Shown piece after piece: positions 4,301-27,056 of a stretch of 64,000 nt of DNA. The translations under genes were made by a program, and so were the position numbers. Location of the stretch: NCBI RefSeq assembly GCF_030409055.1, contig NZ_CP116619.1:2953628-3017627 (forward strand), in the 5' to 3' direction. Source of the DNA: Trichocoleus desertorum NBK24 (lineage in GTDB: Bacteria; Cyanobacteriota; Cyanobacteriia; FACHB-46). Positions within the stretch are counted from its first letter, which is position 1, and each line of letters starts with the position of its first letter. The notes beneath the pieces are model-generated. The model saw only the letters and a program-made list of their open reading frames with translations, was not told the DNA's origin and made no database searches.

Positions 4301-4340
4301 AAATATAATCTTAGTACGTCCTGCCTAGTTTGTAAATTTT

Positions 4341-5087: not shown

Positions 5088-5094
5088 CCCAAAA

Positions 5095-7113: not shown

Positions 7114-7141
7114 AGTTGCCGAGGGATGTCCGAAAAACACT

Positions 7142-10196: not shown

Positions 10197-13033
10197 CAAA
10201 GTCCTCCCAGGCGCGTTACAGCTTGGTTATAAAAGCGAAAGAGTTTTGGGTCTTCCTGCAGGATGGTTTCTGGGATTTTGTGGGCGATGTCTAGAATGGT
10301 TCGATAGCCTTCTTCTGTCCGCTCCTGCCAGCACTGCTTGAAACCTGCGCGAATTGCTTCAGTGCGGAATGGCTTGAGTTTGCGCTGGTTTGATTGGCGG
10401 TATTGCTCAAATTCTCTTAGGAGTTTCTGATCGCGGATGAGTTCTAAGTCTCTAGCCCGAGCGGGGTTTGGCACATACCATCGCTCAAACGCTGCATTGA
10501 GTAAAACCGCATTTTGACTCTCTAGCCCAGTATTGGTGAGATGATCGGCTTCCATCCCATCAATAATTTGTCTGTAGATGGAGGATTCTTTGAGCCAGGA
10601 GACGATCTGGGGGGGAATTGGCTCATTACCCTTATAGCAGGGGAAATTGTCCTCCAGGAGTTCTCGAAGTTCAAACAAGCGTTCGTGCTTTGCCCAGGAA
10701 CGCTGCCCCTCTTTCATAAACTTGGGTGTGAGTTCTTGCAGGGTTTGCGGTTTGCGGGTCAGTTGTTGACGTACCCATTGAATGGCTGATTCTTCATCTG
10801 TGACAAGCAGTTCAAGCTGGAGGAATTCACGGACGGTGTGACGTTTGCGATCGTATTCCAATGCCTGTTCTGGCAAAAAATACATCCCATTTCGCGGCTC
10901 AAATCGCTGTTCCATGCCAGCATAGAACTCAGCGGCAGAGAGAGGAATCATGACCCCACGCTGAACGTGAAAAGCAACCATCTGGTCGTAGAGCATCTGA
11001 CTGGTACGCTCAGAAACGGGTTCTGCACAGTCATTGAGGATCGGCATTACAGGCAGTTGCCCTAAGTGAGTGCGAACAAAATCCCATACGCCTTCTTTGG
11101 TGCCTGCTTCCAGCTTGAAGCGAGACTCTAACCCACCATTGGGCTTGTAGGCAGACACCACCAGATCTTCTTTAGGGGCACTGCTGGTGACTTGCCGGTA
11201 AGAACCTTGCTGTTTATTTAACGTGCGAACCGTTGAAACTACGAACCCTGCGGATAACATCGCTTCTTGAATCACATTCCAAACCGCGTTTTTGGAATTG
11301 TGGAACACCATTGTCATCCAGCGACCAGGTTTTAACACTCGATAGTATTGCTCAAAGCAACGTTGCATTAACTGTTGATAATCTGATAAATCCTTTTGCT
11401 TTGCTTTATCAATAATTGCTTCTGTATCAGCATTAGTTCTAACTTTATGCCAAGACTCAATTAGAAAATTTAAGTCAGCATAATAAATATTTTCACCAAA
11501 GGGCGGATCAGTAAAAATGTAGTCAATTGAGTTATCAGGAATATCGAGATTGGCTGTTATGCTGGCATTAGCAGTAATATGAGATGTATTTGCATGAAAA
11601 CTCTTGAACGCTTGAACAAGCCTTGTTAACTTACCGTCTAGTATGTACCAAGGACTACATTCAGAGGTTTGAGAGCCGACATAGTACACTCCATTGAGAT
11701 AACGGTTAACTTGTGAAAAATGCAATGGGCTATATCGATTTAATAAAGACATTCCCCAGATAGCTTGCTCTGCAAAGAATAGCAACATATTTCTGGTGCG
11801 AAGGTTCTCTACAGAAGAGACTTTCTGCCACAAAATACTCAATGATTTAGCTGCACGACTAAGGAAGAAATGATGAATATGGGTGATTCCAAAGGCCTCC
11901 ATTCTTGCTCGTTGATGAGTCATGTGCATGAATGGAATTTCTACTGTTGGAACACTTATAGGAAGAGTTTGATTTTCAATTCTTTGAAAGATTTCTAAAT
12001 CTTTTTCATCAGGCTGTTTTTCAAGTTTTCTCTTACCCAAAACATAGTTAATCAAGACTGGCTTTCGCTTTATCCGTCTAACATTTCTACCTAACGCCGA
12101 ATCGAAGTAAGTTTCATATAACCTATCCATACGTTTCTTCGTGAGTTCGGCACCACAGTTTGAACAAGGAAATGCATTTTTAACACGCTTTGTCTCTAGG
12201 TCGAGGGCTTCAGTCAAGAACGTAACATCCCTGGTACATTCCGGACACGAAAAAACATCGCTCCAAACTGTGTAATTAATTCGGCATTTGGTTTTTCCAT
12301 CCGTATGAAGCGTCTCGTACATCCAACCAATTTCGTCTTTCAGTTCCTTCAGAATGCGCTTGGCTTCGTGTTCAAATGCCTCCACATCAAACGGTAAATT
12401 ATAATTTGCGCCCATAAAGGTGGCAGCAATGCTGATATCATTTAGCACCGCCCGACGCAAGCCCCACTGCACAGGTGGAAGATTTGCGACTTCACGTTCT
12501 GTCTCAATCTCTGTCTTAAATCCTGGATCTGGACTTCCACACATTTGAGCCGCTACACCTGTTAAGCCAGAACCAGAGAATCCATCCAAAACAATATCTC
12601 CTGGCTCTGTATAGTGCAGGATGTAGCGCATGATGGCTTTATGGGGCACTTTAGTGTGATAGCCATGAGCAGTGTATAGGCTGTCCGTTTTGCCTTCACT
12701 GATATCAGCTGCCAAAGGTTCCCGGTGGTAATTGCTAGTTTCAGGATCGTAAGGTTTTCCGTAGTAGCGAATGAAGCCTTCAAGAAAAGGATTAGGGCAA
12801 GCGGTATAGTAGGGCGGGTCCGATAGCGCCAAGATATCTTCGTCTTCGCCAATGGGGAATCCTTCGATCGCTCGAAACTCAGGGTCTTTTAGCTTCTCCC
12901 GCAGTTTTTCCAAAAAATAAGCCCGCCGTGCCTCATCGTTCTTAAAGGTCATGCCTAAGCACTCTACGGGTCCCTGAATTTTGGCTAACTCATCTGGCTC
13001 AGAAATTGACAACTGCTTGGCTGACTCCGCCAT
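10196..13033 (-). CDS. pglX1: BREX type 3 adenine-specific DNA methyltransferase
   Basis: A 945-residue DNA methylase expected to mark host DNA as self. DPPYYTACPNPF near residue 72 and TDPPFGENIYYADLNF near residue 507 are (D/N)PP(Y/F) catalytic-type motifs of N6-adenine enzymes. GDIVLDGFSGSGLTGVAA near residue 150 is the SAM-binding loop. Two Cys-x2-Cys pairs (SCPEC, PCSNC) around residues 255-290 suggest a zinc ribbon between them. The real start is taken as ATG at 13033, preceded by GGGGAA; a TTG at 13057 would add eight residues. It follows brxC by 10 bp and overlaps the ATPase gene by one base. The order brxF-brxC-pglX1 matches type 3 BREX. Confidence 0.9.
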   Translation of the reverse strand: MAESAKQLSISEPDELAKIQGPVECLGMTFKNDEARRAYFLEKLREKLKDPEFRAIEGFPIGEDEDILALSDPPYYTACPNPFLEGFIRYYGKPYDPETSNYHREPLAADISEGKTDSLYTAHGYHTKVPHKAIMRYILHYTEPGDIVLDGFSGSGLTGVAAQMCGSPDPGFKTEIETEREVANLPPVQWGLRRAVLNDISIAATFMGANYNLPFDVEAFEHEAKRILKELKDEIGWMYETLHTDGKTKCRINYTVWSDVFSCPECTRDVTFLTEALDLETKRVKNAFPCSNCGAELTKKRMDRLYETYFDSALGRNVRRIKRKPVLINYVLGKRKLEKQPDEKDLEIFQRIENQTLPISVPTVEIPFMHMTHQRARMEAFGITHIHHFFLSRAAKSLSILWQKVSSVENLRTRNMLLFFAEQAIWGMSLLNRYSPLHFSQVNRYLNGVYYVGSQTSECSPWYILDGKLTRLVQAFKSFHANTSHITANASITANLDIPDNSIDYIFTDPPFGENIYYADLNFLIESWHKVRTNADTEAIIDKAKQKDLSDYQQLMQRCFEQYYRVLKPGRWMTMVFHNSKNAVWNVIQEAMLSAGFVVSTVRTLNKQQGSYRQVTSSAPKEDLVVSAYKPNGGLESRFKLEAGTKEGVWDFVRTHLGQLPVMPILNDCAEPVSERTSQMLYDQMVAFHVQRGVMIPLSAAEFYAGMEQRFEPRNGMYFLPEQALEYDRKRHTVREFLQLELLVTDEESAIQWVRQQLTRKPQTLQELTPKFMKEGQRSWAKHERLFELRELLEDNFPCYKGNEPIPPQIVSWLKESSIYRQIIDGMEADHLTNTGLESQNAVLLNAAFERWYVPNPARARDLELIRDQKLLREFEQYRQSNQRKLKPFRTEAIRAGFKQCWQERTEEGYRTILDIAHKIPETILQEDPKLFRFYNQAVTRLGGL

Positions 13034-13043
13034 CCGTTCCCCT

Positions 13044-16000
13044 TCATTCCAAAACAATCCTGACCTTGGTAGAGTCTAACCCACGAATCTTGCCATTGAG
13101 ATAGTCTCTGAAACGATTCTTGAACTCCTCAGGAGAGATTGGAGAGCCACCCTTCAGCAACGCCGATCGTATCTCTTCCAGTTGAATAACTACCTTCTCC
13201 AGCCCAGAGAGAGAGTCTTGCAGTGTATGGATAAAATCTGGGGTGAGATCGGGCAATTCGCCCGACTCTATAAATGCTGTAACAGCTTGCTGCTGGTCCT
13301 CTGACAGAAGGCGAATACTCTCTTGAGCTACGGTTGAGTTGAGGTTATCGAGCAAGGATTTTGTCCAGCTAGCAACCAATTGATCCAATTCCGCATCCAT
13401 CTGTTCCAGCCGTAACCCAACAGGTGACTGAACGTCTTCACTGACTGGACGAAACTGGCAATGAGGGCAGGTGGGTGTGCTTTGCAAGTCCTGTTCAGTC
13501 AGTTGCGAACATTCCTGGAGCCGATTCAACCGCTGTTGATAATCATGCAATTGCTGAACAGGCATGACATCAATCTCTTTCAATCGGTACAGCATTTTCC
13601 ACCGCTCGTCCTGCACTAAACGATTACGCTGACGGACTTCTGCCACACCCAACCGTCCACGACTGTGTAAAGTGGCATAAGTCCGAATATACTCCCGCTT
13701 TAGTTCAGTAATCTTTTGCCGAGTACTTTGTTGAAAAGCTGAAGCTTCTCGCTGCTCCGGGTCTTGCAATTCCATCACCAGTTGATTGCGAAACTGACGC
13801 ACGTCAATGACCCAAGGATGGCTTTCAGGCAATGCCATGCTTGCCTGAGACAGGTAATTCGTCGGCTCCCTCAGATTGGTCAGCATTTCCAGTAGATACT
13901 CAACCTGTCGCAGAGTATCTACCCCCCTTTGTTGACGACCTAACTCTGATGGATCAAGCCTCAGATTCTTTAATTTTGCAGGTGTATTAAATGCCTGAAG
14001 CGATTCGAGAAAAACCTTTGTGTCGTTAAGTGTTGTCTGATATACCGTTCCTAAACGTCCGTCTGGTATCAGTGCCTGTCCCCAAACTGCTAATTTAGGC
14101 AGGTGCTGTCTGGCATTCAAAATCCGAGCTACTAGCTCAGAGAGCCGAGGTTGAAACTGCTGAGCAACGATTGCTTCCGCTTCTGTCCCCGTTTGAGTCA
14201 CCAAAACAGCTTTCCCTGGCTCTAGCCCGACCAATTCAAACACTGCTTTTAGAACAGGTACGTTCCAATCCTTAGGCTGCTCAATGTGCTTAAAATTGAC
14301 TAGCTCACTAATAGGAGCCGTAATCAAACTATCCAGATCACCCGCATCATATTTTTTACCTCGTACCGACAGAACCACGTCTCCGTTGTAAACCAACCCT
14401 GCCAGTAGTACAACGATCCATTCAGGTTCCAAACGATACCGGACCATGAACTCAATGCCAAATTCATCCTGAATCAGCTCCGATCGATTTAGAATCTGTC
14501 CTTGTCCTTTGCTTCGTAACAGTTCCAAGGTGTAATTGGCATATTTTGATTCAGAAGGAACCAGGCGATCGCCGTCTAAAAGCTCTAGGGCATCCAGTAC
14601 AGCAGTTGCTTGCTTAGTTTGGGTTGTCCCACGCATCCACCGGAGAGCATCTTGAGCAGCTTGAGGTCTATTCTCATTCGTAATCAACACAGAGAAGCCA
14701 GGATAATCCGGAGCTAGCTGCCGAAAATGATCTTCAAGACACACCGAAGCGGCTGTATTGAAGATATCTCTTACGCCTGCGCGTGCTCCCCCAGTCGTTA
14801 GCTTGCCCTTAATCCATTCCGGTAGTGGCTTTGTCTGCCCTCGATAAGTAACCTTAAAAGCAGTTGTAATGTTAGTTTCCAGCCACCTCACCAGATTTCT
14901 CAAATAACCAGCAGCTTTAGAGGCATAGGTCTCCTTTGCCTTACCAGAACTGGTGGCTTCCAGATCCAATGCGGCTGCATACCAGTTCAATGCTGTATCA
15001 AACGTTTCATCTCGACGACCTAACTCAAAGAAAACATCACTCGCCTCAGACTTTGATAACTTAGGCAGTTCACCAAAAGGCTGAAGAAAAAAGATATAAA
15101 AATCTCTGGGAGGTTGAGCAGTGGAACGCTGATTTGGGGTTCCGAAGAACATGTAGCCAATTCGAGATGCATGATGGCTGCGCCACTCTAGCTCGTATTC
15201 CCAAGCTAAGTGAGTCCCAGCATAGTATCGATCAGAGAGGTAAAGAATTTGGGCTAATGCTCTGAAGTAGGCTTGGTCAAGTTTACTTCCATCTAAGCTT
15301 TCAGCCCGTTTGTTAATTTGAGCATCATAATCAGTCGTTTTCTTGATGTCTAGATAGAATTGCCCGCTAGGAACACCTTTGCTGTCTCGATCTGTTGCCG
15401 AGATAAACTGCCCATTGACGGTATTACTGATCAAACGCAGAGCCGTTTCAACTTCACCTCGCAAATCATCCGCAGGCTCGTCGCTCATATCCTCCACACC
15501 AGGCTCGTAGAGGCAAAGCCCATCTCTCAGCGCCTCTGCCGTTAACCCTACAGGGGCTTCAATGTCTCCCACTGCTAGACGATACAGGCTCAACCCGTGA
15601 ATTATCTTCTTGGCAAACTCTTTTGATGCTCTAGGAGGATAGCTGCTTTCAACCAACCCTTCTAATTTGGCACTGCACTCAACAACCTCTCGGATTTCTG
15701 GAATCGTTTTGAAGGCAGCATTTTCCTTGATGACGGTCCAGTATTGGTCATAGCTGATCAACCCTGGCTCGCTTTCATGAACAACATCGTCCAACTTACG
15801 CCGCATCGCTAGAGACAGGGTTCTTAAGACTTCCCGCTTTTCAATGAAGGCAATCCGGTTGAAGACGTTGATATATTCTGGATGAATTGGGAAGAGATCA
15901 ACATACTCCTCTATTTGCTCGTTCATATTTCCATAAAACTTGGCAAAACGAGCTAAATGTTCTCTTATCTTGACTTTCTGCTCGGCGTTCTTCTTCAAAA

Positions 16001-16778
16001 GCCGTTCAGCCACAACAAACTTGATGTCTCTAGTAGCAATCAGGACTTGATCAAATCGGTCTTTCACTCGCCGGATCGCTCCTGCTACATAGGAGAAGCG
16101 ATCGTTATCAAATAATTGTTCTTGAAGTCCAGCAATAAAGCGGAATGGAAGATATTTACAGACTTCTCCAATTTCTCTTAAAAAAGAAAGATCAAGGTTG
16201 AGTTCCTGGTCTGTTCGGCTACCCAGGTAATCTAGTAACTCATCCACCACGAGAAGCAGTCCCTTATCCTGGTACTCCGGATGACTGTTAAAGGTAGCCA
16301 TCATTTTCTCAAAGGCAGGCTTAGTATTAATAACCTCTTCAACTGAAGGAAAAGTATATTGAATGCCTAAGTTACCTAAGTATTCTTCCAAAACAGAAAC
16401 CAGGATGTTGCGGAGAGACATTTTAGTTGTGCCAATCTCAGCCCGGACAACCTTAAACTTGCCTGCGATAGTTGCCGCAGCATGTACAATGCTGGAGTTT
16501 GTTAGATCCTTCGTTAGGTTGCTATGCTCGGCAATCGCCGAAATTACTGACATCAGGTGAGATTTCCCTGTACCATAATTTCCAACGATTAAAACTCCTT
16601 TGCTATCGTGCCCGTCCAATCTAAGATTTGGAAATAAATTAAATGTAAGCTTTTCAGCCATCTCGTCTGAGATGGCGTAGGTAGAAACAAGGCGTTTTGC
16701 CTCTTGAATACGGTCAGCATCCCGCAGTTGAACAACGGTCTCAATTGGCTCAAATTGAATTAGGTCGCCATATCGCAT
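13044..16778 (-). CDS. brxC: BREX type 3 BrxC-like AAA+ ATPase (DUF6079)
   Basis: A 1244-residue P-loop ATPase. The start MRYGDLIQFEPIETVVQLRD and Walker A region VLIVGNYGTGKSHLMSV (residues about 61-77) are typical of the DUF6079/BrxC family, which is essential for BREX and distantly related to ORC/Cdc6-like ATPases. LLLVVDELLDYLG near residue 180 is the Walker B segment. A C-terminal CPHC near residue 1105 may bind zinc. Size fits the family (about 1200). It follows brxF by 37 bp and the methylase starts 10 bp after its stop, so all three are likely cotranscribed. Confidence 0.92.
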   Translation of the reverse strand: MRYGDLIQFEPIETVVQLRDADRIQEAKRLVSTYAISDEMAEKLTFNLFPNLRLDGHDSKGVLIVGNYGTGKSHLMSVISAIAEHSNLTKDLTNSSIVHAAATIAGKFKVVRAEIGTTKMSLRNILVSVLEEYLGNLGIQYTFPSVEEVINTKPAFEKMMATFNSHPEYQDKGLLLVVDELLDYLGSRTDQELNLDLSFLREIGEVCKYLPFRFIAGLQEQLFDNDRFSYVAGAIRRVKDRFDQVLIATRDIKFVVAERLLKKNAEQKVKIREHLARFAKFYGNMNEQIEEYVDLFPIHPEYINVFNRIAFIEKREVLRTLSLAMRRKLDDVVHESEPGLISYDQYWTVIKENAAFKTIPEIREVVECSAKLEGLVESSYPPRASKEFAKKIIHGLSLYRLAVGDIEAPVGLTAEALRDGLCLYEPGVEDMSDEPADDLRGEVETALRLISNTVNGQFISATDRDSKGVPSGQFYLDIKKTTDYDAQINKRAESLDGSKLDQAYFRALAQILYLSDRYYAGTHLAWEYELEWRSHHASRIGYMFFGTPNQRSTAQPPRDFYIFFLQPFGELPKLSKSEASDVFFELGRRDETFDTALNWYAAALDLEATSSGKAKETYASKAAGYLRNLVRWLETNITTAFKVTYRGQTKPLPEWIKGKLTTGGARAGVRDIFNTAASVCLEDHFRQLAPDYPGFSVLITNENRPQAAQDALRWMRGTTQTKQATAVLDALELLDGDRLVPSESKYANYTLELLRSKGQGQILNRSELIQDEFGIEFMVRYRLEPEWIVVLLAGLVYNGDVVLSVRGKKYDAGDLDSLITAPISELVNFKHIEQPKDWNVPVLKAVFELVGLEPGKAVLVTQTGTEAEAIVAQQFQPRLSELVARILNARQHLPKLAVWGQALIPDGRLGTVYQTTLNDTKVFLESLQAFNTPAKLKNLRLDPSELGRQQRGVDTLRQVEYLLEMLTNLREPTNYLSQASMALPESHPWVIDVRQFRNQLVMELQDPEQREASAFQQSTRQKITELKREYIRTYATLHSRGRLGVAEVRQRNRLVQDERWKMLYRLKEIDVMPVQQLHDYQQRLNRLQECSQLTEQDLQSTPTCPHCQFRPVSEDVQSPVGLRLEQMDAELDQLVASWTKSLLDNLNSTVAQESIRLLSEDQQQAVTAFIESGELPDLTPDFIHTLQDSLSGLEKVVIQLEEIRSALLKGGSPISPEEFKNRFRDYLNGKIRGLDSTKVRIVLE

Positions 16779-16815
16779 CGCTGTATCCTCTTGCTTCTGC
16801 CTCTTCTAGTTAATT

Positions 16816-17304
16816 TCAGGGATTTGATTCAACACTTATAATCACTGCGTCTTGCGTCTGATATTGGACATATTCAGGGTGCCCAGGTTCCGCCTGAACC
16901 AAGTATCCCCTTTCGTATGAACCAGTCCATCTCGCTACCACCATATAGCGACGAGCTATATCAAGCAGACATCGCATTGGATCTAGCCTTAAACCTACGT
17001 CAAAAAGAATCTCAAGGTGATCTAAGACTAATCCCTGCTGGGCAGATTGCCCGATAATTTCATCATTAAGTAACTTGAATGCTTTAACAGGCTGCTGTTG
17101 CTTAGAGATTTCTAATAAAAGTCGACTTAGTTCAAGATTAACGTTTACATACTGAAACCCTAGCTGAGCAGCTACTTCCCTAAATGACAATGTCTGCCTT
17201 GAGCCAATTGTCACCACAACTACAATCAGCCGATGGCGGTGTAGCTCGGGAGCTTGATTAATATGGCGAACAGACTGGTTAATCCTTTCTATGTATTCAT
17301 TCAT
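16816..17304 (-). CDS. brxF: BrxF-like protein, P-loop degenerate
   Basis: A 162-residue protein opening the operon. YVNVNLELSRLLLEI near residue 51, LDHLEILFDVGLRLDPMRCL near 90-110 and YLVQAEPGHPEYVQY near 135-150 match what I know of BrxF, the small P-loop protein specific to type 3 BREX. The first strand is followed by VVTIGSRQTLSF where a GxxxxGK(S/T) loop is expected, so the Walker A motif appears lost, while the Walker-B-like LVLDHLEILFD is kept. ATG at 17304 follows the stop of a 42-residue reading frame by a single base. Confidence 0.8.
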   Translation of the reverse strand: MNEYIERINQSVRHINQAPELHRHRLIVVVVTIGSRQTLSFREVAAQLGFQYVNVNLELSRLLLEISKQQQPVKAFKLLNDEIIGQSAQQGLVLDHLEILFDVGLRLDPMRCLLDIARRYMVVARWTGSYERGYLVQAEPGHPEYVQYQTQDAVIISVESNP

Positions 17305-17305
17305 T

Positions 17306-17434
17306 TCAATTAATTAAACTCAGCATGAGACTGTCAAGAGTCATCCTTAGATTCAGAAAATATCTTTTCCAGTCAAACTTCCATAGCAGCAAGCGAAATA
17401 GAACTTCCTCATAGAGAGTGTCAAAATCTGCCAT
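17306..17434 (-). CDS. Possible 42-residue leader ORF of the BREX-like operon
   Basis: A short reading frame, MADFDTLYEEVLFRLLLW at its start, ending TGA one base before the brxF ATG. Such spacing would couple its translation to brxF. The ATG has no strong ribosome site; the frame stays open upstream to about 17490, so the start is uncertain. It could be a true small protein or the tail of a decayed gene. Confidence 0.35.
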   Translation of the reverse strand: MADFDTLYEEVLFRLLLWKFDWKRYFLNLRMTLDSLMLSLIN

Positions 17435-17645
17435 GAGAGTTTGGGTCTTCTTGGTTGTATTGATCAATTCATCAGGGCTACTTGTCTATTGACATGCTGC
17501 GAGTCGCTGGATAATGTCAATTAGTTTACTTGTACTAATTGCTCAAGATCAAGGATATAAGCAAAGCTGCTGAGGTAGGCTACTTATTGAGTCGGTACGA
17601 ACTTTTAAGCCTCCAAGAGCACAAGCTATTGACGAGTGGTTCAGA

Positions 17646-17855
17646 TTATGACTTTTTGTACTGCAAGTTGATTATCCTAGCGAACTCAACACTACGGTTA
17701 ATATCACTGCCTTCTGCGATCGCTGAGAGTTGAGTATTGATGGCTTCTATAAGGCTTTGGAAAAACTGAAGAATAAAGGGTAGTAGTGGCGCTCGGCGAT
17801 CGATTAGACCTGCAAATGCAGCAAGAGTAGCTTGATGAAAGATCCTTGCTATAAG
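17646..17855 (-). pseudogene. Open fragment without a start codon, probable gene remnant
   Basis: Sixty-nine open codons on the minus strand, protein-like (FAGLIDRRAPLLPFILQFF, then QSLIEAINTQLSAIAEG), bounded by stops and lacking a usable start. It begins inside the 3' end of the merR gene in another frame. I recognise no family. The rest of the 414-bp stretch to brxF's short leader ORF shows no other feature except the presumed operon promoter, which I cannot place. Confidence 0.3.
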
Positions 17856-18526
17856 TCAAGGTCCTTATTTTGGGAAACAGGATGCTTCTTTTTCGCTTTC
17901 CCCGTTGCTCCTAGCCATTCCTTCAGTTTTTTCACTAAGCTAGCTTGAACTACGTCTAGCCAAATAGGAATAGCAGGCTGACCATTACACAAAGCCGTAA
18001 TTGCCTGCTCCAAATTGAACTCTAACAACTCAAGCTGTTGATCCCCGGAGCTTCGACATAACATAAATCGCTTAAATTGACCAAATTTAAGCAATGCTGC
18101 ATCTTGTTTTCTTATTTCCTCTAATACTTTGCTCGAAAGTTGAAAATCAAGACCAACTGAAAGCATGTAGTCCATAAGTACAAGCACGACTAAGTCATCG
18201 ACAGAATAGTAGACGTTCCGGCCTGTTCCCCTATTGTTGAAATGGGGAACAAGGACATCTTTCTCACGCCAATACTGTAACTGACGACGAGTACAGCCTG
18301 TGATTTCAGACGCTTGAGTACTGGTATAAAAAGTTTCGCCCGTAGACAAACTAACAATTGATACTTGTCCTACTGCTTGCGATGAGTACTCCCCGAGCGC
18401 TTGTAAAAGCCTCGCTTTTCCTGCTCCTGCCATACCGTGAATCGTGAGAGCTGATTGCTGATTGTCTAAGGTCTCCTTTAGTTTCTCGAGGAAAGCTTGC
18501 CTTTCATCAGCTTCTTGCCTCGCCAT
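17849..18526 (-). CDS. MerR-family regulator with N-terminal P-loop-like segment
   Basis: A protein of 225 residues from ATG at 18526 (a GTG two codons earlier is possible). Residues about 60-130 hold a MerR-type winged helix: YTSTQASEITGCTRRQLQYW, then a wing with FNNRGTGRNVYYS and DDLVVLVLMDYML. The C-terminal half is helical and could dimerise. The N-terminus carries ALTIHGMAGAGKARLLQAL, shaped like a Walker A loop but with Ala instead of Ser/Thr after Lys, so nucleotide binding is doubtful. MerR-type repressors are known in some CRISPR-associated transposons of cyanobacteria. Divergent from tnsAB and adjacent to a large palindrome, it probably regulates transposition genes, the defence operon or itself. 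Confidence 0.8.
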   Translation of the reverse strand: MARQEADERQAFLEKLKETLDNQQSALTIHGMAGAGKARLLQALGEYSSQAVGQVSIVSLSTGETFYTSTQASEITGCTRRQLQYWREKDVLVPHFNNRGTGRNVYYSVDDLVVLVLMDYMLSVGLDFQLSSKVLEEIRKQDAALLKFGQFKRFMLCRSSGDQQLELLEFNLEQAITALCNGQPAIPIWLDVVQASLVKKLKEWLGATGKAKKKHPVSQNKDLDL

Positions 18527-18536
18527 AAGCACTTAT
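18525..18536. promoter_or_regulatory. Short dyad over the merR start
   Basis: ATAAGCACTTAT is a dyad with 5-bp arms (ATAAG/CTTAT) and spans the merR start codon region. GTGCTTAT/ATAAGCAC also occurs in both arms of the large palindrome at 18602-18658. A shared half-site suggests binding by the same regulator; this is inference. Confidence 0.4.
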
Positions 18537-18601
18537 ATTGAATCCGTTAAAAATCTTGCTTTTCACCACCATCTTACAAAAATAAACTTTTGTTAATCAT
18601 A

Positions 18602-18658
18602 AAACTATAAGCACATAATGTTACTCAACTTTAGAGTAACATTATGTGCTTATAGTTT
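18602..18658. promoter_or_regulatory. Perfect palindrome with 25-bp arms between merR and tnsAB
   Basis: AAACTATAAGCACATAATG plus TTACTC (18602-18626) is exactly inverted at 18634-18658 around a 7-base spacer AACTTTA. It lies 76 bp upstream of merR and, before the IS630 insertion, would have been about 80 bp upstream of tnsAB. It could be a divergent operator or a small structured RNA. It is much longer than usual MerR operators. Confidence 0.7.
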
Positions 18659-18725
18659 GAATCTGTTTAATCTTCGAGATGTACAAACAACGCTTGTCAT
18701 CCAAAACTAATGTACTAATACCAAT

Positions 18726-19280
18726 TCAATTTAAGGCTGCATAGAATAGGGCTTCTAAAATGAAATCATAACTGGTCAATGAAGCGACTTGTTCGGGAAG
18801 GAGTTCGCCTAAAATCTGGCTCAATCGCTTCTGCATCTGTGCGATCGTTGTGAAGTGCTCGCCCTCTAGCTGAGATTTGAGATACTGCCACAATCGTTCT
18901 GCTGGATTCAACTCTGGTGAGTGAGCAGGTTGCAGTACCGGAATCAGATTCTCTGCCCAACGCAAACTCTGAGCTTGATGCGCTTGCGCTCGGTCTAATT
19001 GAATCAGTGCCCGATCCTCGCCAAGTTCCGTTGAAAGTGCATCTAGGAAGGATTGAAACTGCTCAGAGTTGAGCTGAGTATACTCCTGCTCAAAGTGCCA
19101 TCCACTCAGCGGTTCAACGACTCCATAGACCCAGAAGTTATCTCGCTTCCACGCTACTTTCGCCATCGGCTTCACTCCACAAGCAGTGATGACTCGCCCT
19201 GTCTCCGTTTTCAGTCCCAAGCGCATCTCATCTTGGCACAAATACCGCAACCGTTTGCCTTGACCAAACAGGTTCTGCAA
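18726..19280 (-). CDS. IS630 transposase, catalytic part (OrfB)
   Basis: 184 residues with the DDE catalytic core: CQDEMRLGL (first Asp), ALIQLDRAQAHQ (second Asp) and SPELNPAERLWQYLK (Glu). The listed start is formal; the natural product is probably a fusion with the upstream part by -1 ribosomal frameshifting. The stop TGA lies inside the element's terminal repeat. It looks intact, so the element could be active. Confidence 0.9.
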   Translation of the reverse strand: MQNLFGQGKRLRYLCQDEMRLGLKTETGRVITACGVKPMAKVAWKRDNFWVYGVVEPLSGWHFEQEYTQLNSEQFQSFLDALSTELGEDRALIQLDRAQAHQAQSLRWAENLIPVLQPAHSPELNPAERLWQYLKSQLEGEHFTTIAQMQKRLSQILGELLPEQVASLTSYDFILEALFYAALN

Positions 19281-19282
19281 AG

Positions 19283-19786
19283 TTAGAAGGGCAAGGGGGA
19301 TGTTTTTTTAAACAAGGTGACTGCTTGCGGATCTTGCTGAATGCTTTGAGGACGAGGCACCTTCAATTTTGCTTTCAGCCGATAACGCACGGTTTTATGC
19401 ACCGTTTTGTATTTCACGGCTTTGCCCAATTCGCTTCGCACCCACTGTTCGACCTCCCCATAACTTTTGAATCCCTCCGGTTGTGCCAAACGCTCTTGCA
19501 GTTGCCGCAGCATCTCATCATCCATTTCTGGTGGACGACCCGGTGACTTCTTGAGGCGCAGCAACTCACTGATACCTCCTTGGCGATACTGTTGCAGCCA
19601 GCGAGTAATGGTTGAAGGATTGCGGCCCAAGCGTTGAGCAAGTTCTTGATGTTGCTGCACTTGAGCACTCTTGAGCCACCACAGCATTTGTAGTTTCTCT
19701 TTTTGGCTCACTCTTCGGGCTTGGTGCAAGCTCTTTTCGAGATACTCCACACTCTCTTGAATTTCAACGTGAAAGGGGCGTGCCAT
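19283..19786 (-). CDS. IS630 transposase, DNA-binding part (OrfA)
   Basis: 167 residues with helix-turn-helix regions: LAQRLGRNPSTITRWLQQYR near residue 52, then KKSPGRPPEMDDEML as the linker. Near its end the sequence TTTAAAAAAAC provides a slippery A-run. Slipping back one base there leads into the catalytic frame, which runs on through NIPLALLTLQNLFGQG. This arrangement is common in cyanobacterial IS630 elements. Confidence 0.88.
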   Translation of the reverse strand: MARPFHVEIQESVEYLEKSLHQARRVSQKEKLQMLWWLKSAQVQQHQELAQRLGRNPSTITRWLQQYRQGGISELLRLKKSPGRPPEMDDEMLRQLQERLAQPEGFKSYGEVEQWVRSELGKAVKYKTVHKTVRYRLKAKLKVPRPQSIQQDPQAVTLFKKTSPLPF

Positions 19787-19866
19787 GATTGCTCAGAGTC
19801 AGTTAATTCTTCTTCTTAATTCTATGCACCTTTAAATTGAATTGGTATAAGTCAAGAGCAATTTAG

Positions 19867-22683
19867 ATGTTGAGCGAAGAAGAATTTAGACAGTGGTGCG
19901 ATCGCCTCAATTTACCAGAGTCAACGCGAAAGGTCGTTCAGGACGTTCGTTCTTCCAATCCCTCGCGTCGAGTTTTAGGTAGCAGAGTAAGCGTTACAGG
20001 ATTTTACTCCAGCCGAAAAATGGGGCTAACAATTCAGTTTGAGTCCCATCGGAACGAGTTAGCACGTATATATGAACTAGAGCATGATCCAGATGTGTTG
20101 GAGTATTATGATCAACCCCCACCCATTGAACTGATTTATCAAGCGAAAAGTGGGCGGGAGAATCGACATCTGTATACGCCTGATTTTTTTATCATTCGGG
20201 TTAACTCAGCAGGATGGGAAGAGTGCAAAACCGAGCAGGAACTAACAAAGCTTAGTCAAGACAGCCCAAATCGGTATTCCAAGCAAGAGGATGAACGATG
20301 GCATTGCCCACCAGGTGAAGAATTTGCAGCGAGGATTGAGCTTAGCTTCAACGTTTGGTCAGATGCAGAGATTAGTTGGATCTCTCAACGAAATTTTGTT
20401 TGGCTAGAAGACTATATTGGGCTAGAGCCATCCAGTGTGTTTGATGAAGCTAGCCAAGCAGTCGTTGCGCTCATCAAAGCCAAGCTAGGAATTACGCTAG
20501 CAGAGTTGCTTCAGCAAGCTGATGGCTTCAATGCAGATGACGTCTATACCTTAATTGTCACTGACCAGCTATATGTGGATTTGGCTAGATTTAGCCTAGC
20601 TGAACCGGAAACAGTTCGTATCTTCCTGAACAAAGAATTAGCTTTAGCATTTGAGCGCACTACCGAAATTCATCCCTCCACTATTCCAATCAGCCTTCAA
20701 AACGTTCAGATCTCAGTAGGATCTTCTTTACTCTGGGACAGCGAGCTTTGGGAAGTAATTAATACAGGTATTACATCAACTGCATTACTGCGATCGGATG
20801 GAAAGTTAATTGAATTACCAAATTCTGCAATCGACAAACTGATTTCGGAAGGGAAAATATCATCCCCCATTATTGAGGAGATTATTGGAACAAAGGCAGA
20901 AATCGAAGAAATTCTACGACGTGCTCGTCCTGAAGATACTAGAGAAGCAAATCGTCGGTATGAAATAATTCAGCCCTATTTAGGTAAAAATCCTCCTCCT
21001 AGACCCTCCAGTACAATTCGTCGCTGGCGAGATTCCTTTCGTAAAGCTGAAGGACTATATGGAAACGGATATATCGGGCTTTTTCCTAGGAATCAGGAAA
21101 AAGGAAACTATTCACCAAAAGTTGATGATAAGTCTCATCAGTTCATGCTCAACTTTATAGAAAGAAACTATGAAAATTCTAAAAACCGGAGAATTCTTCG
21201 GGTTTATGAAAGTTACGTTGAAGCATGTTCAGTTAATGAACCACCTTTTTTCCCCTTAAGCCGTACTACCTTTTCTCAAGCGATTAATAAACGAGATGTA
21301 GTTAATAAAACACTTAAACGTGAAGGTCGTCGAGCTGCTATTCAGAAAGAAGAGTTTTACTGGGAATTAGAAATAACTACACCTCGACATGGCAGTCGCC
21401 CTTTCGAAATTGTTCATGTTGATCATACAGAACTAGACGTTGAACTAGTCAGCTCTATTCAATCACTTGCTACCTGTAGCTCAATCTCTATTAGTGATGT
21501 AGTTAAACACAATCTTGGTCGTCCCTGGGCCACTTTCATGACTGATGCTTTTGACAGAAGGCTACTAGCAGTTTACCTGACCTATGAGGAACCAAGCTAC
21601 CGATCTTGCATGATGGTGTTACGCATTTGTGTACAGCGATTTAGACGGTTTCCTCAAATTATTGTAGTAGACAATGGAGCAGAGTTTCACAGCCATTATT
21701 TTGAGCAGCTAATAGCCTATCACTACTCCACCAAAAAACACCGTCCTGTAGCTAAAGCGCGGTATGGCTCTGTTCTTGAAAGGCTCTTCGGTGTTGCAAA
21801 TACCCAATTTGTTCATGAACTAACGGGTAACACTCAAATCATGAAAAAACATCGCCAAGTGACTAAATCAGTCAATCCTAAAAATTTAGCAATCTGGACA
21901 TTAGATGAACTTTACGAATCACTTTGTGAGTGGGCTTATAAGATATACGATAAACGAGAACATCCAGCATTAGGTAAAAGTCCTCGTGACGCTTTTAAGG
22001 AGGGAATTGCATTAGGGGGCAGCCGTTCACATCGTAGGGTCGAATATGATGAAGCATTTCGTATGTTGACTTTGCCTGCTCCTGATGGCGGCAAACGGAA
22101 AGTACAACCTGGTTATGGGATAAAAATCCACAATATCTACTATTGGTCTAATGCCTTTCGTGATCCACAGATTGAGAAATCCTCAGTAGAGGTAAGATAC
22201 GATCCATTCGATGCTGGGACTGCCTATGCTCTTGTTCAAGGGCAGTGGGTGCAATGTATATCTAATTACTATCAATATCTTCAGGGTCGCTCTGAAAAAG
22301 AAATCCGCCTTGCTAGTGCAGATCTGCGTAAGCGGAAACTTAGTCAAGGGCAAAAAACTATTGAAACTGACAAAGAATTAATCCAATTTCTTAATTCAGT
22401 AGAAGCAAAAGAAGGGCGATTGCTGCAAGAACACTTAAAAGCTGCTGAAAATCGTCATGTTTTGCAAATACTTGAGACTGGATTTAATGAGAATGGAGAC
22501 CCTATAGATTCAGAAGCATCCTTTTGTCAGAGCATTGAGATTGCTTCTCAAAGTAACTTAATCCTAAGTTCTGAAACTGACATTTCAAGCCATGAAACCG
22601 ACATCTCAAATAATGTTGTCGAAGGTGAATTGGAGAGCGATGGAGACGACGTAGACGGTTTTGTATTTTATGGAGAGTTTTAA
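19867..22683 (+). CDS. tnsAB: TnsA-TnsB fusion transposase
   Basis: A 938-residue fusion of the two strand-processing subunits of Tn7-like transposition. The N-terminal TnsA part (about 1-200) is a restriction-endonuclease-like domain cutting the 5' strand, with Glu64, Asp106 in YTPDFFII and Lys121 in EECKTEQEL as the expected triad. The C-terminal TnsB part has an rve integrase core with Asp519 (VHVDHTELD), Asp602 (IIVVDNGAEF) and Glu638 (GSVLERLFG), a DD(35)E pattern that joins the 3' ends to target DNA. All catalytic residues are present, so cut-and-paste transposition is expected. Such fusions occur in several cyanobacterial Tn7-like and type I-B CRISPR-associated transposons. The stop overlaps the tnsC start as TAATG. 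Confidence 0.95.
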   Translation: MLSEEEFRQWCDRLNLPESTRKVVQDVRSSNPSRRVLGSRVSVTGFYSSRKMGLTIQFESHRNELARIYELEHDPDVLEYYDQPPPIELIYQAKSGRENRHLYTPDFFIIRVNSAGWEECKTEQELTKLSQDSPNRYSKQEDERWHCPPGEEFAARIELSFNVWSDAEISWISQRNFVWLEDYIGLEPSSVFDEASQAVVALIKAKLGITLAELLQQADGFNADDVYTLIVTDQLYVDLARFSLAEPETVRIFLNKELALAFERTTEIHPSTIPISLQNVQISVGSSLLWDSELWEVINTGITSTALLRSDGKLIELPNSAIDKLISEGKISSPIIEEIIGTKAEIEEILRRARPEDTREANRRYEIIQPYLGKNPPPRPSSTIRRWRDSFRKAEGLYGNGYIGLFPRNQEKGNYSPKVDDKSHQFMLNFIERNYENSKNRRILRVYESYVEACSVNEPPFFPLSRTTFSQAINKRDVVNKTLKREGRRAAIQKEEFYWELEITTPRHGSRPFEIVHVDHTELDVELVSSIQSLATCSSISISDVVKHNLGRPWATFMTDAFDRRLLAVYLTYEEPSYRSCMMVLRICVQRFRRFPQIIVVDNGAEFHSHYFEQLIAYHYSTKKHRPVAKARYGSVLERLFGVANTQFVHELTGNTQIMKKHRQVTKSVNPKNLAIWTLDELYESLCEWAYKIYDKREHPALGKSPRDAFKEGIALGGSRSHRRVEYDEAFRMLTLPAPDGGKRKVQPGYGIKIHNIYYWSNAFRDPQIEKSSVEVRYDPFDAGTAYALVQGQWVQCISNYYQYLQGRSEKEIRLASADLRKRKLSQGQKTIETDKELIQFLNSVEAKEGRLLQEHLKAAENRHVLQILETGFNENGDPIDSEASFCQSIEIASQSNLILSSETDISSHETDISNNVVEGELESDGDDVDGFVFYGEF

Positions 22684-23831
22684 TGCAACTAACAGGTGGG
22701 TTTCCTCGCGAATTACTAGACTCTTCTGTCACAGAAAGAGTTGCCTTTTTTGATAGTTATACAATGCCCCATCCAAGGTTATTTGAGGCAGTTCAACAAT
22801 TAACAAATTCTATATACGAATCAGCTAAACCACCACTTGTCTTTGTATTTGGACCTACTGGAGTTGGCAAATCAACCTTAATACGCAAGGTTAGTAAAAC
22901 ACTCATAGAGACAGCTTTACCCGACTTGTTTGAGAATAAAGGTCGGATTCCGTGTGCAGGCATTGAAGCTGCAACTCCAGAATTCAGTAACTTTGACTGG
23001 AAGGATCTTTATGTTCGGGGTTTGATTGCTTTACAAGAACCACTAATTGATAATAAGGTTGCTCCTAATTCTGTCACAAAAAAAACTAATTCTGACAAGA
23101 ACAAATTAAAACTACGTCTTTCTTTTGAAGAAGCATTACGTCAGCGTCATCCTGATGCATTCTTTATTGATGAAGCTCAAAATTTGGGGAAACTAAGCAG
23201 TGGACGCAAGTTAAAAGACCAGACGGATTGCATCAAATCCATTGCAAATATTTCTGGAGTTCAATTTATTTTAGTCGGAACCTATGAACTGATAGTTCTT
23301 CGAAATTTAAGCGCACAATTATGCCGCCGTAGCGTAGATATCCATTTTTCACGCTATCAGTCTAATCCTGAAGACCTAAAAGTCTTTGAAAATATTGTTA
23401 GAACCTTCCAATACTATTTGCCGTTACCAGAAATGCCTGATCTGGCTAGCCATTGGGATTTTTGCTATGAGCGGACAATCGGTTGTGTTGGGATTCTTAA
23501 AGATTGGTTGTCTCGTACACTCAGCGCAGTACTTAAAGCTGACCCATCAGCAAGAACAGTTACCTATAAAGACTTGAAGAAGCATGCTTGGTCTGTAGAA
23601 CAATGCAAAGTTATGTTAGCCGAAGCTATGGAGGCAGAGGGAAAATTTAGGGATAAGGATGCGGGAAAAAATGACTTAAGAATAGCCTTAGGGTTAGCCC
23701 CTAGCCAACCATCAACTAGGCAAATGCCTTCTCAATCCAATACAGCGACATCTCAAAGTAAACGAAAAACTCGTAGTGTGGGCAAGCCAAACCCAACCCG
23801 CCGTCCTACAGGAGAACAAAGTGATGGTTGA
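22683..23831 (+). CDS. tnsC: TnsC-type AAA+ transposition regulator
   Basis: 382 residues. Walker A FGPTGVGKST (residues about 56-65) and Walker B AFFIDEAQNLGKL (Asp163-Glu164) mark the AAA+ ATPase that forms filaments on target DNA and connects TniQ-bound target sites to TnsAB. SRYQSNPEDLKVFENIV near 225 and the DWLSRTLSAVL helix belong to the TnsC family. The C-terminal 45 residues are basic and low in complexity, probably a contact tail for TnsAB. It overlaps tnsAB by one base and the first tniQ gene by 8 bp, so the four genes form one operon. Confidence 0.94.
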   Translation: MQLTGGFPRELLDSSVTERVAFFDSYTMPHPRLFEAVQQLTNSIYESAKPPLVFVFGPTGVGKSTLIRKVSKTLIETALPDLFENKGRIPCAGIEAATPEFSNFDWKDLYVRGLIALQEPLIDNKVAPNSVTKKTNSDKNKLKLRLSFEEALRQRHPDAFFIDEAQNLGKLSSGRKLKDQTDCIKSIANISGVQFILVGTYELIVLRNLSAQLCRRSVDIHFSRYQSNPEDLKVFENIVRTFQYYLPLPEMPDLASHWDFCYERTIGCVGILKDWLSRTLSAVLKADPSARTVTYKDLKKHAWSVEQCKVMLAEAMEAEGKFRDKDAGKNDLRIALGLAPSQPSTRQMPSQSNTATSQSKRKTRSVGKPNPTRRPTGEQSDG

Positions 23832-25392
23832 TTTAATAACTGTCTACGATTCTTGGAACCTAGAGGAGCCAGCACTTCCACCACGCAGCCATCTATATTA
23901 TCTAGAACCAATCGGTCTAGGGACACCTTACGTAGAGAGTTTGACAGGGTACGTGGCGCGCCTATCTAAAACTCATTACGTTGAAACAGGGATGCTAATC
24001 CTAACCCAAATTGCACCATTTATGAAGGAGGGATATGTATTTAATGGACGTGCAGGCGGCATAGACAAGGTATATGGACGTTATACACGAGCCTTTAACG
24101 GGGCATCTAACTGGACTAATGCTCTAGTTACAGCACTTGAGTCCCTGACTTTGCGCCGTGATTTAAGGTTCCTATCAATGCTGCCTTGGGCTGAAGTGAT
24201 TCCTCTTAGGTACTTACTTCGCTCGAATCGAGCTTGGTGTCCAGTTTGTTATGAGGATTGGGCCAAGACAGAGCAAGAAATTTATGAGCCACTTTTATGG
24301 GTCTTCGACAGCATCAAAATCTGTTCTTACCACAGTCTTCCGCTCTGTACCAAATGTCCTCATTGCCATAAAGAGAATAGACAGCTTGATTGGTACTCCA
24401 GCCCTGGATACTGTTCTAAATGCAAAGAGTGGCTTGGGGTTAGCCAGAATTCCTATCAAACAAATATGGGGGAACTTGTAGAGAGCAACTTAAGTTGGCA
24501 ATTATGGGCTTTTGAGAATATAGGGAACTTGATTGCTACTGCCCCAAGCTTGGTCAACCCACCATCCAAAGAAACGATCTCAACAGCGATCGCTGCTTAT
24601 GTAAAGGCAACTTCTAAAGGGACAGTATCCCAATTTGCCAATCGAGTTGGTATAGGAGGACAACAAATTCACCGACATATTGAAGGAAAAACGCTTCCCT
24701 CCTTGAAAACCCTACTACAACTTTGTGGGCACCTTGGGGTTCCACTACTGAATTTTCTAACCAAGGAGCCTACCGTAGAAGATTTAACAAGAGCATCTGC
24801 ACACCTTCCTCGATTAGAAAATTCCGTTAGAAGAAAGCAATTTGAGATTCGGCATAATTCAGCTAGTGTACAGATTGCTCTGGAGAAGGCGTTACTTGAA
24901 AGCCCACCACCGTCGGTTAAAGAATTAGGCGAGCGGCTCGGCTATGCAAGTTCGGGGCCGCTATACTACCATGCCTCAAATTTAGCTCACGCTCTTGCAG
25001 AGAAGCACGCTGCTTATGAGAGCGCACAACGCCTAGAAAAAATGCAGAACATTTTGAAGAGGACTCTTCAAAATGATGAATACCCACCTCCTTCAATGCA
25101 AGATGTTGCCAAACGAGAAGGACTTGGTGTCCAACTTCTCACAAGCACCTTTCCAGAGCTATCTAAGGCTATTTCAGATCGTTATAAAACGTATCAGCAG
25201 ATGTGCAAGGCAACCCGCATAGAAAAACTTCGCCAAGAGGTTAGAGAAGCAGCTCTTCAGTTACATAAGCAAGGAACTAAGCCTACAGGAGCGAGAGTAT
25301 CAAAGTACTTGAGCAAACCAGGATCAATTTTGCAGCAGCCAGCCATTGAAGCTTTGCAAGAGATACAGCACGAATTGGGCTGGAAAAGTTGA
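23824..25392 (+). CDS. tniQ: TniQ/TnsD-family target-selection protein 1
   Basis: 522 residues from ATG at 23824, chosen because AGGAG lies about nine bases upstream and because the paralogue downstream starts at the same point; the frame is open upstream inside tnsC. The TniQ domain is at the N-terminus (YVESLTGYVARLSKTHYV near 30-50), then zinc-binding clusters CPVC, C-x2-H, CPHC and CSKC between about 140 and 205. A helix-turn-helix like VSQFANRVGIGGQQIHRHIEG follows near 265. The C-terminal 200 residues hold two more repeat-like helical DNA-binding segments (PPPSVKELGERLGYAS, PPPSMQDVAKREGLG). The longer C-terminus suits a TnsD-type protein reading a fixed site, most simply the tRNA-Leu locus. 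Confidence 0.92.
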   Translation: MVDLITVYDSWNLEEPALPPRSHLYYLEPIGLGTPYVESLTGYVARLSKTHYVETGMLILTQIAPFMKEGYVFNGRAGGIDKVYGRYTRAFNGASNWTNALVTALESLTLRRDLRFLSMLPWAEVIPLRYLLRSNRAWCPVCYEDWAKTEQEIYEPLLWVFDSIKICSYHSLPLCTKCPHCHKENRQLDWYSSPGYCSKCKEWLGVSQNSYQTNMGELVESNLSWQLWAFENIGNLIATAPSLVNPPSKETISTAIAAYVKATSKGTVSQFANRVGIGGQQIHRHIEGKTLPSLKTLLQLCGHLGVPLLNFLTKEPTVEDLTRASAHLPRLENSVRRKQFEIRHNSASVQIALEKALLESPPPSVKELGERLGYASSGPLYYHASNLAHALAEKHAAYESAQRLEKMQNILKRTLQNDEYPPPSMQDVAKREGLGVQLLTSTFPELSKAISDRYKTYQQMCKATRIEKLRQEVREAALQLHKQGTKPTGARVSKYLSKPGSILQQPAIEALQEIQHELGWKS

Positions 25393-25406
25393 TCTCAAAC
25401 TAGACT

Positions 25407-26765
25407 ATGAGAGAAAGCTTATCTCTTTACAATTCATTGGATCTCAGCCTGCCTGAGGTTCCATCACGCAGCCGTCTTTATAGCCTAATCCCCCTTGGGG
25501 TTAGTACACCCTACATCGAAAGCTTGACTGGATATGTTGCTCGCCTCGCCAGCCTTCACTATGTCAACGTAGGTACTTTACTAGCGAAAGAATTTGTAAC
25601 GCTTTTAAGACAGCCTAATAGCAAGAGCTATCTACATGGGATGAGCAGCCGTACAGAAGCCTTTAATGGAACGGGTGCTATGGCTTTTGATCTAGTCAAG
25701 GCATTGGAACAGCTTACTATGCAGAATAACCTGAGGTTGCTGACAATGCTAACTTGGGCTGGAGTCATTCCTGCTAAAGGCTTACGCCGTAATCGTGCTT
25801 GGTGCCCTATATGCTACGAAGATTGGTTAATAGGAGACCAACCAATATATGAGCCACTCCTATGGTCGATAGAAGTAGTTAAAATTTGTCCACACCACCA
25901 CCAACCTTTACATAATTATTGCCTTCACTGCGAACGTCAACTACCACTCTTGGGATGGCTTTCTCGTCCAGGTTATTGTTCCAAGTGTGGAGAGTGGCTT
26001 GGGCAACACCGTAGAGATAAAGAAGTGGAGCTAGGTAGATTGGAGTGGCAAATATGGGTCTCAAAAGCTGTCGGGAGCCTGGTTGCGAAAGCACCATTTC
26101 TATCTAGTTCATTAACCAGGGAGACAGTTGCAAGGACGTTAAGAGCTCATATTGATGAAGTGAGTCAAGGAAACGCTGCCGAGTTTGCTCGGCAGCTTGG
26201 AATGCCCAAAAATACAGTCTGGTTATGGGCTTCAGGCAGAGTGCTGCCACAGCTTGATACCCTCCTAAAGATCTGTTACTGTCTCGAACTATCTGTGGTC
26301 GATTTCCTGACAGGGACTGACATTAATCTAGAAAACAGCAGGGTGATTAGGATACCCAATATCTCAACTCACTCAAATTCGAGACGAGTAATTGGCAAGC
26401 CATTTGATGATTTCGCGATCCACTCTCTATTAAAAAAATTTCTTGATGACGATACATATGCATCATGGTCAATGCAACGCATTGCCAAACAGCTTAACTA
26501 TGATGCAAGCTTTCTCCGCAGACACTTTCCAGAACTTTGCCGTAATATCTCTGCACGCTATTTAGAATATTGCAAATCAGAACGCATTAAAAAAATTAAT
26601 CAAAAGTGCTTAGAAGTCCAAGAAATTGCAATAAAGCTTTATAAAGAAGGTGAAGAGCCGACGCGTAGTAGCATTTCTCAGTATCTAGGTAAGCCTGCCT
26701 ACTTTAGGGAGAATGAAGTTTGTGTGGCTCTGCATGATGTACGGCAGCACCTAGGACTTAATTAA
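25407..26765 (+). CDS. tniQ: TniQ/TnsD-family target-selection protein 2
   Basis: 452 residues, a clear paralogue of the preceding protein: YIESLTGYVARLASLHYV at the N-terminus, CPICYEDW, CPHHHQPLHNYCLHC and GYCSKCGEWLG zinc clusters, an HTH (AEFARQLGMPKNTVWLWASG) and one C-terminal helical segment (SWSMQRIAKQLNYDASFL), with about 70 fewer residues than its neighbour. It lies 14 bp after it. Elements with two TniQ proteins usually divide target choice between them; in type I-B CRISPR-associated transposons one serves the guide complex. No CRISPR parts are visible here, so its target is unknown. Confidence 0.92.
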   Translation: MRESLSLYNSLDLSLPEVPSRSRLYSLIPLGVSTPYIESLTGYVARLASLHYVNVGTLLAKEFVTLLRQPNSKSYLHGMSSRTEAFNGTGAMAFDLVKALEQLTMQNNLRLLTMLTWAGVIPAKGLRRNRAWCPICYEDWLIGDQPIYEPLLWSIEVVKICPHHHQPLHNYCLHCERQLPLLGWLSRPGYCSKCGEWLGQHRRDKEVELGRLEWQIWVSKAVGSLVAKAPFLSSSLTRETVARTLRAHIDEVSQGNAAEFARQLGMPKNTVWLWASGRVLPQLDTLLKICYCLELSVVDFLTGTDINLENSRVIRIPNISTHSNSRRVIGKPFDDFAIHSLLKKFLDDDTYASWSMQRIAKQLNYDASFLRRHFPELCRNISARYLEYCKSERIKKINQKCLEVQEIAIKLYKEGEEPTRSSISQYLGKPAYFRENEVCVALHDVRQHLGLN

Positions 26766-26795: not shown

Positions 26796-26845
26796 ATTAT
26801 GCGTTTACCTACCAAGGTGATTACCAGGCTTAGTAAACGCATAAT
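26796..26845. terminator. Inverted repeat after the tns operon
   Basis: ATTATGCGTTTAC (26796-26808) is perfectly inverted as GTAAACGCATAAT (26833-26845), 31 bp downstream of the second tniQ gene. The 24-base loop and lack of a T-run make it a weak terminator candidate; it may instead be part of the transposon end. Confidence 0.45.
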
Positions 26846-26875: not shown

Positions 26876-26944
26876 GCATAAGATGAGCAACCAGCTTTGA
26901 AAGCATAAAGCGAGCAGTTTGCTCATCTTATGGTTTCAGTCACA
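26876..26944. repeat. Transposon right end with three TnsB-type sites
   Basis: GCATAAGATGAGC (26876-26888) and GCATAAAGCGAGC (26903-26915) face outward, and the terminal copy GCTCATCTTATGG (26921-26933) is inverted relative to them. The outermost bases TTTCAGTCACA mirror the left end. The mixed orientation differs from the left end, where all copies point the same way. Confidence 0.85.
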
Positions 26945-26949
26945 CTTTA
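26945..26949. repeat. Right 5-bp target site duplication (CTTTA)
   Basis: CTTTA directly follows the ...TCACA end and matches 4142-4146. It lies 25 bp from the 3' end of the tRNA-Leu gene. Confidence 0.93.
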
Positions 26950-26974: not shown

Positions 26975-27056
26975 TGCGGATGGCGAGACTCGAACTCGCA
27001 AGGCGTGAGCCACACGCCCCTCAAGCGTGCGTGTCTACCAATTCCACCACATCCGC
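26975..27056 (-). tRNA. trnL-GAG: tRNA-Leu (GAG anticodon)
   Basis: Acceptor stem GCGGATG/CATCCGC with discriminator A; D-arm GTGGAATTGGTAGACAC; anticodon stem CACGC/GCGTG around loop TTGAGGG, giving anticodon GAG; a class II variable arm; T-arm GCGAG-TTCGAGT-CTCGC. CCA is not encoded. The gene is intact; the transposon inserted beyond its 3' end, not within it. The 329 bp from here to accC hold no gene that I can see, only the presumed accC and tRNA promoters. Confidence 0.96.

Follow-up and report, generated by a model that had tools for sequence, protein, structure and literature searches.

The locus considered here raises the question of what a long perfect palindrome is doing between a merR regulator gene and the transposase genes of a Tn7-like element. 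It lies in a 64-kb stretch of DNA, referred to below as the window, and an earlier note on this DNA had described it as a perfect palindrome with 25-bp arms. The features needed to follow this description are:

18602-18658, no strand: perfect palindrome, arms 18602-18626 and 18634-18658 (25 bp each), loop 18627-18633; longest perfect hairpin of the window, single copy in the genome
17849-18532, minus strand: merR, encoding a CvkR-like MerR regulator, 227 aa if read from a GTG and 225 aa if read from the ATG at position 18526; matches Alr3614 and Pfam MerR_1
18525-18537, minus strand: merR start region, with a -10-like TATAAG close upstream of the GTG/ATG start

The palindrome reads AAACTATAAGCACATAATGTTACTC-AACTTTA-GAGTAACATTATGTGCTTATAGTTT, and the description proved accurate: the arms are complementary at 25 of 25 positions (100%) and enclose a 7-nt loop, AACTTTA. 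No longer perfect hairpin occurs anywhere in the 64-kb window, in which the chance expectation of such a hairpin is about 1e-9 at the GC content of the window and 2e-8 at 33% GC; the intergenic region that holds it has a GC content of 28%. Perfect hairpins with arms of at least 20 bp numbered only four, this one among them, across 1.21 Mb of fetched sequence that was mostly cyanobacterial. The earlier note had itself named scattered genomic copies as the observation that would speak against its reading. This objection fails because the 5.46-Mb genome, in which a second copy was looked for, contains none.

The regulator belongs to a known family. MerR matches the solved CvkR structure Alr3614 (7xn2) with E=1.9e-37 over residues 67-205, a likeness that extends across the winged-helix and C-terminal domains. 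It groups with the Alr3614 clade (support 99/91), and its segments CTRRQLQYWRE and GRNVYYS closely resemble those of Alr3614. The name CvkR was coined for the repressor described in type V-K CASTs, in which the regulators are 139-185 aa long (PMC9938897); at 225-227 aa, with its N-terminal extension, the protein studied here falls outside this range. V-K CvkR genes are located upstream of cas12k, in reverse orientation and within a V-K CAST. Since the neighbour here is tnsAB and no Cas12k is found among the genes of the element, we refer to the protein as CvkR-like rather than as a V-K CvkR. A V-K CvkR represses transcription in vivo and in vitro, and its mRNA is leaderless; at merR, a TATAAG is close upstream of the start. 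Residues 1-65 form a P-loop-like N-terminal extension with a weak nSTAND6 match, which was found in none of the other CvkR homologues examined. A single-sequence AlphaFold model of MerR was uninformative (pLDDT 41), and a search of plasmids for merR returned none.

Both arms of the palindrome contain a sequence of the type recognised by this family:

18610-18624, no strand: predicted CvkR-type operator 1 in the left arm, AGCACATAATGTTAC, core 18613-18621; core 8/8 to AnnACATnATGTnnT; 21.2 bits, rank 2 in the window
18636-18650, no strand: predicted CvkR-type operator 2 in the right arm, GTAACATTATGTGCT, core 18639-18647; 23.2 bits, rank 1; aligns with V-K cvkR/cas12k intergenic regions

The published CvkR operator motif, AnnACATnATGTnnT, was established by footprint and EMSA (PMC9938897). 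Each arm carries one ACATnATGT core that agrees with the core of this motif at 8 of 8 positions, and the centres of the two cores are 26 bp apart. Of the two outer bases of the motif, each arm matches one and differs at the other. The core occurs 31 times in the genome (about once per 176 kb), and within the window it is confined to the two arms. A matrix was built from five sites located beside cvkR in other genomes (L119, L131, L137, L154 and L155), with the window excluded from training. When the 127,948 window positions were scanned, the right arm ranked first (23.2 bits), the left arm second (21.2) and the third hit reached 9.3, leaving both arms about 12 bits above all other positions. 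In 1.25 Mb, the best match outside the training loci is at a further cvkR locus, a short way upstream of a tnsB-tnsC-tniQ operon. The merR start region (18525-18537) was not among the matrix hits. The 8-mer GTGCTTAT that it shares with the palindrome, pointed out in the earlier note, is weak evidence (90 genomic copies versus 78 for the reversed control), and the dyad described at 18525-18536 (ATAAGCACTTAT) is imperfect and better read as the -10-like TATAAG beside the merR start codon.

The operators recur beside other members of the family. In 390 cyanobacterial genomes, the 15-mer TAACATTATGTGNTT was matched six times: four matches stand beside cvkR homologues (both arms, L119 and L137), one is inside a gene and one is in a CRISPR array. 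In 386 genomes, a double-core pattern matched in 11, and the other seven inspected were all without an adjoining merR and transposase. Homologues of cvkR and their surroundings were gathered from cyanobacterial genomes; many diverge from a gene of about 640 aa, which was cas12k wherever tested (L090, L091 and L154-L156). The palindrome region aligns with the cvkR/cas12k intergenic regions of L119, L137, L154 and L155, and inverted site pairs with arms of 11-12 bp, or near it, are present at the cvkR regions L090, L091, L107 and L119. Against the assignment counts that some cvkR homologues are accompanied by other operator-like sequences. The idea that an RR recognition helix alone dictates ACATnATGT was rejected, the core being also present at the LR-type locus L128 and at a relative of L133.

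The transposon to which merR and the palindrome belong comprises:

4147-26951, no strand: whole Tn7-like element, termini TGTGACTGAARCCATAAGATGAGC, 5-bp duplication CTTTA, beside tRNA-Leu(GAG)
19867-22683, plus strand: tnsAB fusion, presumed repression target; Pfam Tn7_TnsA-like_N, rve and Mu-transpos_C; 34 related loci
22683-26765, plus strand: tnsC, a tnsD-like TniQ protein (538 aa) and a TniQ protein (452 aa); Pfam TniB/AAA and TniQ
26975-27056: tRNA-Leu(GAG), adjoining the element

With TnsAB, TnsC, TniQ proteins, terminal repeats, a 5-bp duplication and a fixed att site, this 22.8-kb unit is a Tn7-like TnsAB element. Its ends are set by the terminal repeats, the CTTTA duplication and the empty site of a congener (G398, L144) beside the same tRNA-Leu(GAG). 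Among the element genes (4341-26765), which comprise BREX, merR, an IS, tns and one unassigned 362-aa protein, none was recognised as a Cas gene, and no CRISPR-like direct repeats were found in 4147-19866. Identity as a CAST (I-B2, I-D or V-K) was ruled out, as neither Cas effector genes nor a CRISPR array were found in the element. The cargo (4341-17304) is a BREX-type defence operon with matches to BrxF, BrxC, PglX, PglZ and BrxA; it also holds an AAA_15 ATPase and, between PglX and PglZ, the unassigned 362-aa protein.

Taken as a whole, the evidence indicates that the palindrome is most probably a mirrored pair of CvkR-type operators, located between the CvkR-like merR and the tnsAB genes of a Tn7-like transposon that lacks CRISPR, and that the pair would serve to repress tnsAB and possibly merR. 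MerR dimers would bind each arm over ACATnATGT, and the bound protein would keep down the expression of the tnsAB operon and probably of merR at the level of transcription, with low transposition as the outcome. This mode of action would be that of the known regulator family; what would be unusual is its occurrence in a TnsAB transposon free of CRISPR and the doubling into a perfect mirror. The system resembles CvkR (Alr3614) acting at Pcas12k and PtnsB of the type V-K CAST (PMC9938897) in its homologous MerR protein, in the core ACATnATGT, in a regulator gene that diverges from the regulated operon and in operators placed at transposase genes. It differs from it in that the element lacks Cas12k and CRISPR, the target is a fused TnsAB from another Tn7-like branch, two full mirrored operators form a perfect 25-bp palindrome, and the protein has an N-terminal extension.

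The arrangement of the two genes fits such a control region. The merR gene (minus strand) diverges from tnsAB (plus strand) and, with an inserted IS left out, the palindrome lies mid-way, with 75 bp separating it from the ATG of merR and 81 bp from that of tnsAB. The earlier note was right to place it between merR and the original tnsAB upstream region: an IS630 copy now separates it from tnsAB:

18721-19845, minus strand: IS630-family insertion between palindrome and tnsAB; TA duplications 18719-18720 and 19846-19847; DDE_3
18651-18656, plus strand: putative -10-like TATAGT, outward of operator 2, with a mirror copy on the minus strand (18609-18604); weak -35

The genome holds seven near-identical copies of this IS630, this one included. 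It interrupts the ~20 bp directly ahead of the tnsAB start codon, where it splits the best consensus promoter of the region, and this later insertion probably cut tnsAB off from operator control. The insertion probably alters tnsAB expression.

Promoters of the MerR family carry a dyad operator within a -35/-10 spacer of 19-21 nt. The palindrome is similar in that the operator is beside a -10-like element and a reading with a 20-nt spacer that encloses the operator is possible in both directions; it is dissimilar in its weak -35 matches and in having two mirrored operators versus one. The 20-nt spacer recalls the 21-nt spacer reported for Pcas12k, and the outward -10-like element occupies the same position at L154 (TATAGT) and L155 (TATGGT). 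The best consensus promoter, TTGTCA-19-TATAAG, sits between palindrome and tnsAB, so that the operator is upstream of it, a position that counts against the operator reading. Given the weak -35 matches and the location of this best promoter, consensus scans yield no more than putative promoters at the palindrome.

With regard to the symmetry, in the V-K regions of the Alr3614 clade a half site, CACAT, precedes a full site, AACATnATGTGyTT, by about 15 nt. Aligned to this layout, the window has about 8 extra bases mid-way; a left arm copied in mirror form from the right would explain them. The simplest history would be the correction of an imperfect dyad: an operator of the V-K type (half site CACAT plus full site) may have been made perfect by template switching, the right arm serving as donor and being copied onto the left. 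Alternatively, the right arm alone could be the working operator and the left arm a recent, functionless by-product of template switching. The single full site plus half site of the V-K relatives is in keeping with this, as are the higher score of the right arm and its inner flank TTAGAG, which resembles TTAGAA of L119. Nevertheless, the left arm has kept a perfect core and inverted pairs are present at further cvkR loci, the V-K locus of the host itself (L090) among them, which makes a single working operator rather unlikely, although it is the strongest of the competing explanations.

The palindrome could instead act mainly as an RNA hairpin, as a 5'-leader stabiliser, attenuator, small RNA or terminator, with incidental operator-like cores. 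Its fold is very stable (-36.3 kcal/mol, z -11) and there is one terminator-like site on the minus strand; however, the arms are rich in A+T, the tail AGTTTTATGA makes a poor U-run, a terminator is unneeded between divergent genes, an Rfam search at the palindrome gave no match, and the operator match is far beyond chance. We consider this role improbable. An intrinsic terminator was ruled out, given the lack of a G+C-rich stem, the weak T tail on one strand and the divergent intergenic region. Long perfect palindromes inside transposons are a usual sign of mobile repeats, transposon ends or replication signals, yet this interpretation is largely refuted and has only the slightest probability. 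A dispersed MITE or REP would have several copies and this sequence has one; TnsB-type sites occur at both element ends (4159-4302 and 26877-26945) and none, with up to 2 mismatches allowed, in the palindrome, which is 8-14 kb away from those ends; and the sole match of an arm to a viral contig falls within a coding frame and lacks the mirror. Of the operator array, RNA hairpin and replication or transposition signal suggested previously, it is the operator that has found good support, in the form of two CvkR-type MerR operators, one per arm; the transposition signal is not supported, and for the hairpin, physically possible as it is, nothing indicating a role was found.

We found 34 TnsAB loci and checked 30 of them; a merR of this kind was present in 0 of these 30, several of which are truncated upstream, and the 600 bp upstream of tnsAB contained no perfect hairpin of at least 12 bp at 24 loci. 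Counting against the assignment, the merR-palindrome pair was found in none of the related TnsAB elements and so cannot be called conserved in elements of this type. The conservation check proposed in the earlier note has an unexpected outcome: the palindrome is absent from TnsAB relatives, which lack this merR, but both the sequence of its operators and their pairing are met again next to cvkR in type V-K CASTs. In the closest TnsAB relative, that of Phormidium tenue FACHB-886 (79% identity), the gene at this divergent position encodes a ribbon-helix-helix protein; an XRE regulator takes its place in a Nostocales group, and others have no regulator there. Since relatives hold ribbon-helix-helix, XRE or no regulators at this position, the comparison points to an exchange of regulators at one slot divergent from tnsAB. 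The regulator genes divergent from tnsAB (ribbon-helix-helix or XRE) lie at 9032-9646 in L047, 9564-9824 in L062 and 8935-9702 in L067.

The element is similar to the TnsAB-fusion, tRNA-targeting Tn7-like elements of the CAST I-B2/I-D branch (PMC11406308, PMC10293859) in having TnsAB, TnsC, two TniQ-family proteins and a tRNA-Leu insertion. In contrast to them, it has no Cascade genes and carries a CvkR-like regulator where relatives have XRE, ribbon-helix-helix or none. Eighteen regulators without CAST components nearby were reported in the CvkR study (PMC9938897). In the literature covered, which mostly excluded subscription journals, no description of CvkR control of a CRISPR-free TnsAB element was found. 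A second cvkR is present in the same genome, beside cas12k at 0.97 Mb, and its inverted repeat, ACATTTGTGTTTAATAGAAACACAAATGT, differs from the palindrome. This host V-K CAST, with Cas12k and its own cvkR (L090; G000 contig C1, 963000-979000), has 12-bp arms in its inverted repeat.

It is conceivable, and we propose it tentatively, that CvkR and its operators form a portable control cassette common to separate Tn7-like branches. The CRISPR-free TnsAB element would hold this cassette where its relatives use XRE or ribbon-helix-helix regulators, with the operator doubled to a perfect mirror for both divergent promoters, beside a V-K CAST regulator with a different operator in the same cell. That a CvkR-type regulator and its operator precede the TnsAB transposase of an element free of CRISPR suggests modular, exchangeable control of Tn7-like elements, for the testing of which the palindrome offers a defined operator. 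The host, whose V-K CAST cvkR region has a different inverted repeat, provides a natural case in which to study insulation between two paralogous transposon repressors.

Two minor observations concern the flanks of this region. Window positions 17488-17834 are 79% identical to 8618-8965 of the Phormidium tenue locus L047, where they overlie a 91-aa ORF, and have been kept beside the exchanged regulator. Right after tniQ, a second perfect hairpin at 26796-26845, with 13-bp arms ATTATGCGTTTAC / GTAAACGCATAAT and a 24-nt loop, perhaps marks the end of the tns transcript.
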